IMG/VR virus record: IMGVR_UViG_3300011252_000341
Span: 1 to 20,908 of that record
Reading direction: 5' to 3' (one strand)
From: a virus
Length of the DNA: 20,908 bases
Shown piece after piece: positions 5,847-20,191 of this stretch; position 1 is the stretch's first letter; each line of letters opens with the position of its first letter. The position numbers were made by a program, and so were the translations under genes. The notes below the pieces were generated by a model. The model ran no database searches. It was not told the origin of the DNA and saw only the letters and a list, made by a program, of their open reading frames with translations.

Positions 5847-6224
5847 CTATGCCGCGATGTGGTACAGCCAGCAATCCATGTGGCCGTTTGTTTTATTGTC
5901 CTCATCTCGCAAAATCGAGTGAGGGGTCTGATCAACTAATCCAGCCGCCACGGCGTGTCGAACTGTGCCACAAACATTGTGTGAGTTTTTCTTTAGCAGC
6001 CGCGCCAAGTCTCGACTGGTCATTGGCCCGTGTTTTTCTAGCGCCCTCAAAATTGGGGCAAACGCGCCAGTATCTGTGCGGCTGGGCCTTGGCTCTTCCA
6101 TATCGCACGGCAAAGTGGGTCGCATTGGCTTGCCTATCAGAAGCTCATTCCCAGTGGTTCTAATAATTTTTGTCTGGCTGCGCTCAAACTCCAGCATTTT
6201 CTGGCCTAACTTATCGTCTGTCAT
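5847..6224 (-). CDS. Winged-helix DNA-binding protein, 125 aa
   Basis: Residues about 54-100 (FAPILRALEKHGPMTSRDLA onward, then AGLVDQTP) fit a winged helix-turn-helix: helix, 'GPMTSRDLARLL' turn, recognition helix with NVCGTVRHAVAAG, then a wing. The N-terminal 50 residues are basic and look disordered. A GGGAGAG site precedes the ATG at 6224. It is the last gene of the recombination operon and lies just before promoter P3, so it may regulate the P1-P3 promoters; that is inference from position. Confidence 0.65.
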   Translation of the reverse strand: MTDDKLGQKMLEFERSQTKIIRTTGNELLIGKPMRPTLPCDMEEPRPSRTDTGAFAPILRALEKHGPMTSRDLARLLKKNSHNVCGTVRHAVAAGLVDQTPHSILRDEDNKTNGHMDCWLYHIAA

Positions 6225-6575: not shown

Positions 6576-7325
6576 TTATACTCCCCTCTTTGGATAAGGT
6601 TTTATCAAGTGATCAATATTTTTCCTGTTTTCTTTTTTTGTTTTTTTAGAGCCTCTAAATGCAAAATATCTGCCTTTGCTATTTTGTTTTATATGCTCAA
6701 CATTCGGATGCGATTTTTTTATTACGTCAATTTTAGTTGTGCCGAATTTCTGGCGCATAGCTCTTGGGCCATATAATTTTCCATTAATTAACCATGCTGA
6801 TCTGTCGCCCTTCCTGCTGTTCACATTAGGGTTGGCATCTCTCATCGATCCAACATAATCAAACCCACAAGCCTGATAAATTGTTCCAATCTCTCCAGCC
6901 AAATCATCAACTGTACAAGTGACTATTTCATACTTTTTAGGCAGCAATCTCATAGACTGCCTAATTAATTTACTGGCAGAATGAGGATGCGCCCAATGTA
7001 CACAAGCGCCACGGTTCAAAAGAATTATTTTTCCCGTGTAATCGTATTTGTCCCAAATGCCCAAATTCTCAATGTATTCTTGGCCGTAGCAAGCAACGCC
7101 ACCGCAAACATTGTCAAAAAATATGCCATAATAATGCCAATTCACAGCGGCCAAACAACCCAGCCATTCATATTCTTCAATAATTTTTTTTGCTGTAGCT
7201 TGTGTTGTCTCTCGCACCACAGCTTTTGAAATGTCTGTATCAACATCATTCCACCAATTACCAAACAAATCACCAGATTTTGTTTCCGCAACACGATCTC
7301 TAACTACTTTTTGGTGAGCTTTCAT
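6576..7325 (-). CDS. Mom-like GNAT-fold DNA adenine modification protein, 249 aa
   Basis: Mom of phage Mu converts adenine in DNA to a carbamoylmethyl-type derivative that blocks host restriction; it has a GNAT fold. This protein has the GNAT-like core AHPHSASKLIRQSMRLLP (about 112-129), GTIYQACGFDYVGSM (147-161) and a C-terminal basic KGRYFAFRGSKKTKKE segment (217-232) ending in KPYPKR, a pattern I associate with Mom-family proteins in phages. The ATG at 7325 overlaps the stop of the VRR-NUC gene as ATGA, so I use it rather than the longer frame from 7472. It sits with a nuclease and a helicase, consistent with a DNA protection and processing operon. A different acyltransferase is the main alternative. 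Family assignment is from memory of motifs, not a search. Confidence 0.65.
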   Translation of the reverse strand: MKAHQKVVRDRVAETKSGDLFGNWWNDVDTDISKAVVRETTQATAKKIIEEYEWLGCLAAVNWHYYGIFFDNVCGGVACYGQEYIENLGIWDKYDYTGKIILLNRGACVHWAHPHSASKLIRQSMRLLPKKYEIVTCTVDDLAGEIGTIYQACGFDYVGSMRDANPNVNSRKGDRSAWLINGKLYGPRAMRQKFGTTKIDVIKKSHPNVEHIKQNSKGRYFAFRGSKKTKKENRKNIDHLIKPYPKRGV

Positions 7326-7705
7326 TTTTCCAAAAACTCCAGCACTTGCTTGGACGCATCGCCTGCGCCCTTTCCAACAATTACAGTGTGGCCCACTGAT
7401 CTCAGATATTCGATAACTTTTTTCTGATCGGGGGAAAGTCTGCCGCCCGTGGCCCTCTTCATTTCCACCCAAAGATTGCAGGAGGGGATATAAAGATCAG
7501 GTATCCCTCTGGTGACCCCCTCGGCCTTCAGCCGTGTCGCCACGCTAATCGATCTCTTCTCACCGTTTGGGATCGCAAAGATCAGCGTGTCTGGATATTT
7601 GGCGCGAAACCAGTTCACAAATCCTACCTGTTCTGAATGCTCGGAATGTTTAAAACGGTATGTCTTCGACACCCCAATCAGCGTATGGCCCTTCTTGCTT
7701 TTCAA
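7322..7705 (-). CDS. VRR-NUC domain nuclease, about 127 aa
   Basis: The VRR-NUC family is a PD-(D/E)XK nuclease group linked to branched-DNA repair. Visible motifs: HSEQ near residue 25, FAIPNGEKR (43-51), GIPDLYI (67-73) with the catalytic Asp, VEMK (80-83) with Glu and Lys, and a following Gln in LSPDQKK. This is a complete single-domain enzyme of usual size. I choose the TTG at 7705 because GGAGAGAAAAA lies just before it; the GTG at 7672 or the TTG at 7747 are alternatives. The start lies inside the 3' end of the helicase gene (overlap 56 bases) and the stop overlaps the Mom-like gene. It probably trims or resolves DNA intermediates in phage recombination. Confidence 0.85.
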   Translation of the reverse strand: MKSKKGHTLIGVSKTYRFKHSEHSEQVGFVNWFRAKYPDTLIFAIPNGEKRSISVATRLKAEGVTRGIPDLYIPSCNLWVEMKRATGGRLSPDQKKVIEYLRSVGHTVIVGKGAGDASKQVLEFLEK

Positions 7706-17107: not shown

Positions 17108-17310
17108 CCAGACAGGCAATCAAACGAGAGCAGTTCAAAGTGAACCACCTGACATTTGAACTGACCGACACGACCTACGCAGTAATTGCTGGGGAGGCCG
17201 TACACGCAAAGGATCGACGCCCACTATTCACGGGCGTCATCACCAAGGGAACCGCAACAGAGCTACGCAGGCTGGCTCACCAGTTTGATGAACGGGAGGA
17301 TAAATTATGA
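17104..17310 (+). CDS. Small basic hypothetical protein, 68 aa, TTG start
   Basis: TTG at 17104 overlaps the previous TGA (TTGA) with GGGAGGGG upstream, a stronger case than the more distant ATG in the same frame at 17062. The product begins TRQAIKREQFKVNHLTFELT, beta-rich in the middle, basic overall. No family recognised. Confidence 0.5.
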   Translation: MTRQAIKREQFKVNHLTFELTDTTYAVIAGEAVHAKDRRPLFTGVITKGTATELRRLAHQFDEREDKL

Positions 17311-17588
17311 TCGTTAAATCTTGGCAGTTTAGGGGCTACGAGTGGAGCCAAGACATGCCAGAATGGCTGAAGCCAGAATGCTCCAAACGTGCGGGAAGCC
17401 CACACCTGTGGATACACACGCAGGCAGGGGAAGCAGCCGCAGGATCAGGGCAGTGGATCGCAATCAATATGCGAGGCCACGTCAGCATCCACAACACAAA
17501 GCCAGATGGCTGGGGCAAAGAAATTATCGCAGGCGCTGCCTTCGCAACCCTTGTCGCAGTTGTCGCAATCGCAATGATGGTGATATAA
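17307..17588 (+). CDS. Small C-terminally anchored membrane protein, 93 aa
   Basis: ATGA coupling with the previous gene and GGGAGGAT upstream. Residues 1 to about 70 are soluble with many Trp/Gly/His; residues about 72-93 form one hydrophobic segment (AGAAFATLVAVVAIAMMVI), a tail anchor. It stands just before the sigma-like gene. A holin needs no such large soluble part, so I do not call it one. Function unknown. Confidence 0.55.
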   Translation: MIVKSWQFRGYEWSQDMPEWLKPECSKRAGSPHLWIHTQAGEAAAGSGQWIAINMRGHVSIHNTKPDGWGKEIIAGAAFATLVAVVAIAMMVI

Positions 17589-18191
17589 ATGGAAGACTTT
17601 AACGTAAAAATAACCGTAAGAAATAATAGATTGCTACAGGCAATTCGTAAGAAATATGAATCCGTGGCAGACCTGTCGCGAAAAATGGGCCGAAGTCAGG
17701 GGGCAGTTAATGCTCTCGTAGCTATGAAAGTTAAACCCATCAACGAAAAAGGCTGGACTGAACTTGCGTCAGATGTCGCCGCAATGGTCGGAAAGGAGCC
17801 AGTAGAAATATGGCCCGAACACTTGCAAGATATCAGGCTATCAACATCAACGTCCGAATTTACTATCGATATGGATGGCGTGAAACAAATAATGTCAGAC
17901 AACTCAACAGAAAAAATGATAGCCCACTCGCAAGTGTTGCAGCAACTTGACACTCGACTAAACGACACGCAGAAAAAAGTAATAGATATGCGCTTCAACC
18001 AAAATATGAGCCTAGAAGAAACTGGAAAAGTTTTAGGATTGAGCCGTGAGCGCGTAAGACAGATCGAATGCAAGTCTATAAGAAGAATGAGATATGATGC
18101 CAAGGTTAATGGATACCTAACGTCAGTCACAAATCATGGTAGAGTTGTTGGACATAAAAAAACCGACGAAGGGTGCGAACTGTTTGATTGA
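17589..18191 (+). CDS. XRE-type HTH plus sigma-70 region 4 protein, 200 aa
   Basis: Residues about 12-75 look like an XRE/Cro-type helix-turn-helix (ESVADLSRKMGRSQGAVNAL). Residues about 119-170 match sigma-70 region 4: LNDTQKKVIDMRFNQNMSLE, then ETGKVLGLSRERVRQIE and a KSIRRMRYD end, nearly the RpoD signature. Region 2, which binds core RNA polymerase and melts the -10 element, is absent, so this is not a complete sigma factor. It could guide host polymerase by contacting -35 elements and the polymerase flap, comparable in principle to split sigma functions in phage T4 (gp33/gp55). Being the last gene before the terminator and the packaging genes, a late-gene switch is likely but inferred. 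Confidence 0.75.
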   Translation: MEDFNVKITVRNNRLLQAIRKKYESVADLSRKMGRSQGAVNALVAMKVKPINEKGWTELASDVAAMVGKEPVEIWPEHLQDIRLSTSTSEFTIDMDGVKQIMSDNSTEKMIAHSQVLQQLDTRLNDTQKKVIDMRFNQNMSLEETGKVLGLSRERVRQIECKSIRRMRYDAKVNGYLTSVTNHGRVVGHKKTDEGCELFD

Positions 18192-18194
18192 TTA

Positions 18195-18218
18195 AGCCCC
18201 GCTTCGGCGGGGTTTTTT
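18195..18218 (+). terminator. Rho-independent terminator
   Basis: CCCCGC-TTCG-GCGGGG followed by six T, a perfect six-pair stem with a UUCG loop and a T-tract, starting four bases after the sigma-like gene. It separates the replication/regulation transcript from the packaging genes. Confidence 0.95.
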
Positions 18219-18288
18219 ACCATAAGAACGACAACCCTTTTTTTTAATTTAATTTTGCATTATATGGAAATAACAGGAGGGCCGCATC
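18219..18288 (+). promoter_or_regulatory. AT-rich promoter region of the packaging genes
   Basis: Seventy bases between the terminator and terS. A run of eight T, AATTTAATTTTGCATTATATGG and a strong AGGAGGG ribosome-binding site are seen. TTATAT or TATATG could be a -10 element; no good -35 element is found at 16-18 bases, so activation by a phage factor is possible. No operator identified. Confidence 0.4.
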
Positions 18289-18798
18289 ATGGCGAAAAAA
18301 ACAACCAAGAAACAACCAGCCAAAAAATCTGTCGGTAGGCCAAAGTTTGAAATCACAGAAGAAGTGATTTCAGAGGTTAAAACACTTGCTGGGCAGGGAT
18401 TGACTGTCGAACAAATCGCTTCCTGCTTGGGTATTTCACCCGCCACCTTCTACAACAGGCAGGCCGAAAATTTAGAGTTTTTGGAGACTATAAAAAAAGG
18501 CAAGGCAATTGCCCTCTCAAAAGTTACCAACGCCCTATTTGAAAATGCTGTGGTCGAGCGGGATAATGTCGCCATCATTTACTATCTAAACAACAGGGAC
18601 AAAGAAAACTGGTCGAACAAGCATGAGGTCGCAACCACCGTCGAACATAAAAATGTCATAGATTTAACAAGGATGAGCGATGACCAACTCAGCGCAATTG
18701 CAGCAGCTTTTAAGCAAGCTGACACTGGAGCAAGTTCAAGCGGAGCGTTACCGCAGATCATTGAGGGAGTTTACGAAAGCCGCATGGCCGACGATTGA
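18289..18798 (+). CDS. terS: Terminase small subunit, 169 aa
   Basis: Recognises packaging sites and delivers DNA to the large subunit. The N-terminus is very Lys-rich, followed by a helix-turn-helix (about residues 38-58, GLTVEQIASCLGISPATFYN) typical of phage TerS DNA-binding domains, then a helical oligomerisation region (IALSKVTNALFENAVVERDN) and an acidic C-terminal tail. AGGAGGG lies nine bases before the ATG. It is followed at once by the large subunit gene, whose first 119 bases overlap this gene in another frame. Confidence 0.9.
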   Translation: MAKKTTKKQPAKKSVGRPKFEITEEVISEVKTLAGQGLTVEQIASCLGISPATFYNRQAENLEFLETIKKGKAIALSKVTNALFENAVVERDNVAIIYYLNNRDKENWSNKHEVATTVEHKNVIDLTRMSDDQLSAIAAAFKQADTGASSSGALPQIIEGVYESRMADD

Positions 18799-20191
18799 AC
18801 CGGGCGTCGATTTCAAAAACAACTGGCACATCGACGCCATCAGTGATCACCTCCAAGCCGTGGCCGAAGGCGACATCAAGCGCCTAATCATCAACGTGCC
18901 GCCACGACACATGAAGTCAATCAGCGTGGCCGTGGCGCTGCCTGCGTGGACTTGGGCCACACAACCCCACAAGAAGTTTCTCTATGCGTCCTACGCCTCT
19001 TCCCTGTCGATCAGGGATAGCGTGAAGTGCCGAAGGCTGATCGACAGCCCGTGGTACAAGGCGCACTTCGGTGACAAGTTTAAGCTGACCGACGATCAAA
19101 ACCAGAAGCAGCGGTTTGAAAATGATCAGACAGGCTATAGAATCGCGACCAGTGTCGGGGGCGCTTTGACCGGGGATGGGGGAGACATTATCGCAATTGA
19201 CGATCCCCACAATTCGATAGAAGCAGACAGCAGCAAAGTGAGGGAGGGTGTGCTGGAGTGGTGGGATCAGGCCATGCAGACGCGCCTCAACGATCCAAAG
19301 ACTGGAGCCTTCATCATCATCATGCAAAGATTGCACGAACAAGACCTCACGGGCCATATTCTCGCCAATGAGCTAGGCAATGAGTGGGATCACTTATGCT
19401 TGCCTGCCAGATATGAGATCGGCCACCCAACGCCCAACAGATCAACCCTTGGCTTCACAGACCCCCGCACAAAGGAAGGCGAACTGCTATGGCCCGAAAG
19501 GATGGACGAGAAGACCCTGACTACCCTAGAGCGGTCTCTTGGCTCCTACGCAGCCGCAGGGCAGCTACAGCAGCGGCCAAGCCCCAAGGGCGGTGGCATA
19601 CTGAAGTCAAGCTGGTGGGTGCCGTGGGAAAAAGAAAACTTACCCGACAATATCGAATATGTAATTCAATCTTGGGATACGGCCTTTGAAACCAAGGAAA
19701 GCTCTAGCTTCAGCGCCCGTACCACTTGGGGCGTTTTCAAGCATCAAGGATACGACTGCGCCATCGTTCTGGAGGCGTGGTACGACAAGGTGAGCTATCC
19801 AGAGCTACGCAAGCTGGCGCAGGAATCATACGATGACTGGGAGCCAGACGCAGTCTTGATCGAAAAAAAGGCGTCAGGGCAGAGCCTCCTGCAAGATTTA
19901 CGCATGGCAGGGGTGCCAGTGCTGGCGTACAGCCCAGACCGCGACAAGGAAGCTCGCGCACACGCCGCATCTGCCCTGCTGGAAGACGGCAGAATATTCT
20001 ATCCCAAGCGCAAATGGGCCGAAGATTTGATCTCAATATGTGCCGCCTTCCCAGCGCACCCAAATGATGATATCGTTGACACTTGCACCCAAGCGTGGCT
20101 AAGACTGAGAAAAGGCTGGTTCCTTGGTCACACTGAAGACCCTGACGAGGACGATTATCAAGAACCGCAAAGGATAACTTTATATGGCTGA
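18680..20191 (+). CDS. terL: Terminase large subunit, 503 aa
   Basis: Motor and nuclease of DNA packaging. Walker A variant NVPPRHMKS (72-80), Walker B DIIAIDDP (169-176), then an RNaseH-fold nuclease with SWDTAFE (331-337, Asp333), VLIEKKASG (392-400, Glu395) and HPNDDIVDT (460-468, Asp463/464/467). Length is usual. I keep the ATG at 18680 because AAGGATGA precedes it and the following LEQVQAERYRRSLREFTKAA segment is conserved in this family. This produces a 119-base overlap with terS. The portal gene begins 8 bases before its stop. Confidence 0.95.
   Translation: MTNSAQLQQLLSKLTLEQVQAERYRRSLREFTKAAWPTIEPGVDFKNNWHIDAISDHLQAVAEGDIKRLIINVPPRHMKSISVAVALPAWTWATQPHKKFLYASYASSLSIRDSVKCRRLIDSPWYKAHFGDKFKLTDDQNQKQRFENDQTGYRIATSVGGALTGDGGDIIAIDDPHNSIEADSSKVREGVLEWWDQAMQTRLNDPKTGAFIIIMQRLHEQDLTGHILANELGNEWDHLCLPARYEIGHPTPNRSTLGFTDPRTKEGELLWPERMDEKTLTTLERSLGSYAAAGQLQQRPSPKGGGILKSSWWVPWEKENLPDNIEYVIQSWDTAFETKESSSFSARTTWGVFKHQGYDCAIVLEAWYDKVSYPELRKLAQESYDDWEPDAVLIEKKASGQSLLQDLRMAGVPVLAYSPDRDKEARAHAASALLEDGRIFYPKRKWAEDLISICAAFPAHPNDDIVDTCTQAWLRLRKGWFLGHTEDPDEDDYQEPQRITLYG

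Follow-up and report, generated by a model that had tools for sequence, protein, structure and literature searches.

A phage protein joining a Ner-like domain to sigma-70 region 4, and its variable presence before the terminase genes of marine Roseobacter phages

What use might a phage make of sigma-70 region 4 without the remainder of a sigma factor, and does the position of such a gene directly before the terminase genes reveal its role? The question is raised by a gene in the window, the whole 20,908-nucleotide stretch of DNA analysed here (positions 1 to 20,908 of IMG/VR virus record IMGVR_UViG_3300011252_000341, an incomplete record of 27,163 bases), whose product, termed S4, carries a helix-turn-helix (HTH) domain and an isolated region 4 in one open reading frame (ORF). 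A reading of the sequence alone had recognised this combination and judged its position to fit a late-transcription activator. S4 has a two-domain architecture, is under purifying selection, keeps the residues equivalent to those with which sigma-70 reads the -35 element, and is present in some phages and absent from their close relatives. The reading preferred here, at a probability of roughly 45%, is that S4 is a polymerase- or promoter-directed regulator in which region 4 works as such, and that its gene is accessory and horizontally exchanged. The gene and the parts of its product are as follows.

17589-18191, + strand: S4 gene, a Ner-like/sigma-4 fusion protein of 200 amino acids (aa) with an ATG start (ORF; Pfam, PHROG and NCBIfam; IMG/VR relatives)
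17595-17867, + strand: N-terminal Ner/Cro-type HTH domain, residues 3-93 (HTH_35 in the family, phrog_769, predicted local distance difference test (pLDDT), invariant residues)
17868-17951, + strand: linker, residues 94-121 (two predicted helices; pLDDT 53-66; few amino-acid changes in close relatives)
17952-18107, + strand: sigma-70 region 4 domain, residues 122-173 (Pfam Sigma70_r4, PDB sequence match, Foldseek)
18042-18077, + strand: recognition helix SRERVRQIECKS, residues 152-163 (alignment with sigma-A)
18108-18188, + strand: variable C-terminal tail, residues 174-200 (mean consensus 0.33, against 0.59-0.69 in the two domains)

The pairing of an HTH domain with region 4 is borne out by profile and structure searches. 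Residues 123-168 match Pfam Sigma70_r4 with 59 bits (cut-off 24.1; E=3.3e-16), the same domain is present in all 47 family members scanned, and region 4 aligns to Staphylococcus aureus sigma-A domain 4 in the PDB with E=3e-8 on its own and 2e-15 with the family profile; Foldseek places it on 1ku7 with a TMt of 0.72 and a root-mean-square deviation of 2.0. The N-terminal half, judged from its sequence, is best described as Ner/Nlp-type. It matches the PHROG 'transcriptional repressor' family phrog_769 (E=1.9e-7), carries the family motif D-F-N-[IV]-K ... VRN-x-RLL ... WP[ED]H, and belongs to a set of which 26 of 47 members match HTH_35 at E<=0.01 (best 7e-6), with the window protein at 23.5 bits, under the Pfam cut-off of 25. 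A PDB sequence search with the N-terminal domain alone returned no meaningful match. Membership of phrog_36 was set aside as uninformative because its profile also matched in all 14 control genomes. In the AlphaFold model, built with 47 sequences (mean pLDDT 82), the two domains are confidently predicted (about 86-93 at residues 11-80 and 88-96 at residues 121-170) and loosely connected; given a predicted template modelling score of 0.48 and a linker of low confidence, each domain is well defined, but the model does not fix how the two are placed relative to each other.

A region 4 standing by itself might be half of a split sigma factor, with region 2 carried on another phage protein, and two-part sigma factors do exist, as in the SigO/RsoA pair of Bacillus subtilis. 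A profile search for region 2 found no Sigma70_r2 in the S4 protein or anywhere in its incomplete 27.2-kb record. Fourteen further records that carry the gene, four of them 54-62 kb long, were likewise negative, while the search was positive in 10 of 14 control genomes. The earlier statement that region 2 is lacking thus stands, a split sigma factor is hardly credible, and by its domain content S4 is not an ordinary sigma factor either.

Four scans of IMG/VR recovered from 31 to more than 80 relatives of S4. The family counts 69 or more sequences from metagenomic phages, 46 of them non-redundant; they are 180-246 aa long and 29-93% identical to the window protein, and both halves are kept in every family sequence taken. 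Nine positions are invariant in the 47 sequences compared (D3, V10, R11, N12, L15, L16, A18, P50 and W75). Within the recognition helix the same residue is kept at R153 in 37, E154 in 39, R155 in 46, R157 in 45, Q158 in 42 and K162 in 39 of the 47, and these positions align with R584, E585, R586, R588, Q589 and K593 of Escherichia coli sigma-70, residues that read the -35 element in structures of sigma-A on -35 DNA. That the sigma recognition helix enters the -35 major groove has been stated in general terms (PMC6755090). Between the window gene and relatives 76-93% identical, the ratio of non-synonymous to synonymous substitution rates (dN/dS) over the whole gene is 0.15-0.34, and S4 is therefore not a chance ORF. 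By part, and again relative to the window, dN/dS is 0.00-0.13 in the linker, 0.06-0.19 in the N-terminal domain and 0.28-0.82 in region 4.

Two independently folded units under purifying selection, with the -35 residues kept and region 2 lacking, fit a regulator acting at sigma-70-type promoters, and the sequence evidence suggests that S4 steers or blocks host RNA polymerase. For its DNA sites, polymerase contact, direction of effect and timing we infer the following course. Expression of S4 would fall in the early or middle phase of infection, its gene being last in the rightward operon. The Ner/Cro-type domain of the protein would select a DNA site, and the tethered region 4 would work on that promoter in one of two ways: it would read a -35-like hexamer, or it would occupy the beta flap instead of host sigma region 4. 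The outcome would be an altered use of some promoters, whether of the phage, the host or a competing phage, with S4 dispensable for the late genes. A more specific version has S4 exchange region 4 as a single chain: host sigma-70 regions 2-3 would stay in place for the -10 element, S4 region 4 would sit on the flap, the Ner domain would add an upstream site, and the gene would serve as a mobile, optional cassette for promoter reprogramming. This version is doubtful. S4 as read here has a possible functional parallel in T4, where the HTH protein AsiA stands in for sigma region 4 at the flap and MotA, a further DNA-binding unit, reads a phage site (PMC6755090). AsiA is not homologous to region 4, however, and in S4 both units would lie in one chain.

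Several observations count against a promoter-directed region 4. The recognition helix of relative L001, whose protein is 93% identical, reads SRGRVMQ where the window has SRERVRQ, with the equivalents of E585 and R588 lost. For region 4, comparison of the window with L001 gives a dN/dS of 0.82 from 13 changes, of which 10 are non-synonymous and 3 synonymous between these 93% identical proteins. Reading of the -35 element is therefore not constrained everywhere in the family. In addition, no target site of S4 was found. The altered helix occurs beyond L001, with residues 153-165 reading SRGRVMQIECQSLRM in L001, L002-L004 and L013 and SRERVRQIECKSIRR in the window; a shift of DNA target in these relatives is possible on this pattern.

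The same evidence bears on two further explanations. S4 may be a plain DNA-binding repressor whose region 4 is only a -35-like reader, occluding host or competitor promoters with no contact to polymerase. This is a real possibility, if short of an even chance: the N-terminus is of the Ner/phrog_769 repressor type, the recognition-helix residues are kept, and an accessory distribution suits a function in competition or exclusion, but in sequence and structure region 4 groups with bona fide sigma-A domain 4, a fold that also bears the flap-binding face. Alternatively, S4 could be a moron-type gene whose product has no part in promoter control. It might, for instance, serve host takeover by titrating a host factor, and its region 4 would then be a decoy that draws off an anti-sigma factor or activator whose normal partner is sigma-70 region 4. 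The accessory distribution would again suit such a gene, and phage proteins do target region 4 (AsiA, PMC6755090; G1 ORF67, entry 4g6d), but a decoy leaves both the kept -35-reading residues and the DNA-binding N-terminus unexplained, and this explanation is unlikely.

The distribution of S4 was followed in the slot that the gene occupies in the window, which is defined by these features.

17307-17588, + strand: ORF X (93 aa), a homologue of CRP-901/902 gp01 that bounds the variable slot on the left
18194-18219, + strand: intrinsic terminator GCCCCGCTTCGGCGGGG, 3' of the slot (9-bp stem with a TTCG loop, followed by a U tail; folding energy -16 kcal/mol with z -3.5)
18236-18267, + strand: A/T-rich promoter-like stretch TTTTTTTAATTTAATTTTGCATTATATG before terS (alignment of gene-less slots)
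18289-18798, + strand: terminase small subunit (terS), right border of the slot (phrog_309, E=7e-26)
18680-20191, + strand: terminase large subunit (TerL; phrog_38, E=1e-94), which served to assign the genus

The ATG of S4 lies directly 3' of the TAA of ORF X. The window TerL shares 86-87% identity with its counterparts in CRP-901 and CRP-902, two Roseobacter phage isolates that are the defining members of the CRP-901-type genus and whose hosts belong to the CHAB-I-5 lineage (PMC10149686), and on this similarity the window phage is a CRP-901-type Roseobacter phage. Of the loci from the 80 TerL relatives closest to the window, 65 show the slot with both its borders. The slot holds no gene in 50 of these, an unrelated ORF in 11 and S4 in four, with L002 counted as a carrier; the compiled slots also include six loci that came from scans with the fusion protein and stand outside the TerL-anchored set. 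Gene-less slots measure 102-285 bases, many of them 119-125, with L104 as the sole exception among the 50. Relatives that lack the gene, with TerL identities reaching 98%, have the terminator GCCCCGCTTCGGCGGGG unchanged behind the slot (alignment of the 50 slots), and the TTTTTTTAATTTAATTTTGCATTATATG stretch before terS is near-identical in most gene-less close relatives. The S4 gene is also absent from the complete genomes of CRP-901/902 in a whole-record search in which the query was positive for the window record as a control. The presence of S4 on the TerL tree requires six changes, five of them forced by well-supported branches, a pattern that recombination between phages would yield. It should be noted that the sample is centred on the window and that most IMG/VR contigs are fragments, so that a copy of S4 elsewhere in gene-less phages is possible. 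The survey suggests that S4 is an optional accessory gene and not an essential late-gene switch of the phage.

In CRP-901/902 (OQ401623.1, OQ401624.1) the slot is filled by an unannotated ORF of ~160 aa that crosses the record ends (L052:3-482 and L050:3-467). This ORF is HD-like by motif reading only, gives no Pfam match, and is also found in 11 IMG/VR relatives. A consensus scan for promoters and terminators gave counts equal to those in shuffled sequence. The promoter-like stretch at 18236-18267 was not called by it, and the terminator at 18194 is absent from its list and was demonstrated by folding instead; the scan probably missed it through pairing of the stem into the T run.

These results bear on the sequence-only proposal that S4, lying before a terminator and the terminase genes, is a late-transcription activator, taken here as an essential activator of the terminase operon that would work in the manner of RinA/Ltr or Xpf. 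The S4 gene does stand directly upstream of terS at 18289, in the place of late transcription regulators of the RinA/Ltr/ArpU/Xpf type, and a region-4 domain could recruit polymerase. In the defective prophage PBSX the Xpf gene also stands before the terminase genes. Xpf is described as a sigma-like factor of this Bacillus subtilis prophage (PMC4243946), and it is likened to S4 by that description; S4 differs in being optional and in its added Ner-like domain. RinA/Ltr of Gram-positive phages are required for late genes, whereas S4 is missing in close relatives with the same late operon. With 50 of 65 slots empty and 11 occupied by an unrelated ORF, with the terminator and promoter-like stretch before terS the same where S4 is lacking, and with S4 between helicase and DNA polymerase genes in other phages, an essential late activator is very unlikely. 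Of the earlier interpretation, the role at polymerase or promoters remains plausible, given a sound region-4 fold and -35 residues kept in 37-46 of 47 sequences, and the argument from position is contradicted. This is a caution on predicting function from position alone, as the neighbouring terminator and terminase genes belong to the slot and not to the S4 gene.

Outside the CRP-901-type genus S4 occurs mostly in replication modules. It lies between helicase (phrog_1967) and DNA polymerase (phrog_17) in L137, ahead of both these genes in L152, next to primase/helicase in L169 and behind an exonuclease in L037; a position before terminase is found only within the CRP-901-type genus and in L177. 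The L184 polymerase is 99% identical to the L137 one, and the L184 region is collinear but lacks S4; in L188 the gene is downstream of the polymerase. S4 is therefore optional in the replication setting too. Exact 24-base direct repeats immediately surround the gene in L007 (4516-4539 and 5150-5173) and L010 (2458-2481 and 3092-3115), and an exact 27-base direct repeat that is the start of the following gene surrounds it in L027 (3220-3246 and 3894-3920). The exact repeats duplicate either the close of the ORF ahead of S4 or the beginning of the one behind it, at two different sites, and shorter or imperfect repeats surround S4 in L008, L011 and L038. From these repeats the arrival of S4 looks like insertion of a bare gene with duplication of the target.

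S4 is a novel variant among phage transcription regulators, an accessory family. Compared with a library of predicted viral structures, it is closest to UniProt A0A0F7L6V6, a 'Sigma-70 region 3 domain protein' of 200 aa from an uncultured marine virus, matched over 178 Foldseek columns with E=2e-10. The two are 24% identical with a TM-score of 0.44, as expected if the arrangement of the domains is flexible, and A0A0F7L6V6 is probably a member of the S4 family; the architecture has therefore probably been deposited already, with no function assigned. The phage repressor-type HTH of Mu Ner and E. coli Nlp (HTH_35) corresponds to the N-terminal half of S4, with the differences that Ner and Nlp have no region 4 and that the window S4 scores under the Pfam cut-off. 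No papers on Ner-like/sigma-4 fusions were found in the literature library searched. Should S4 redirect polymerase, promoter choice, usually part of the core wiring of a phage, would in this abundant genus of marine phages be an optional cassette that can be transferred. Carriers of S4 can be paired with non-carriers whose TerL is up to 98% identical, and such pairs make the effect of the gene directly testable.

The search for relatives was extended to 84,980 bacterial and archaeal genomes, where a first scan found none and in a second every match was limited to region 4 or had its centre there. No carrier was found among phages in culture. In the search among isolate phages, an apparent near-full-length match in a faecal 'phage' contig (H1) was rejected, being a complete RpoD beside a DNA primase gene and hence on a bacterial contig, and H6 was likewise a full RpoD. 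Of the weaker profile matches near helicase genes, the three tested were also discarded as relatives of S4, being a different type of protein, region 4 fused to the C-terminal domain of the RNA polymerase alpha subunit (alpha-CTD). These fusions of a sigma-70 region 4 HTH with alpha-CTD lie upstream of a helicase gene (L256:326-880, L225:346-918 and L243:1300-1728) and score above both Pfam cut-offs (Sigma70_r4, 1.7e-7 to 9.4e-10; RNA_pol_A_CTD, 9.6e-6 to 7.9e-9). A literature search found nothing on region 4/alpha-CTD fusions. Similar weak profile matches occur in L210, L214, L221, L224, L228, L230, L237, L240, L249, L259 and L260.

Two other genes of the window, both on the - strand, may be recorded here.

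6576-7472, - strand: Mom family protein (Pfam Mom, E=2e-18), a DNA modification gene of the Mu type, here carried by a Roseobacter phage
5847-6224, - strand: MarR-type HTH protein (MarR_2, E=3e-7), possibly another regulator in the same phage
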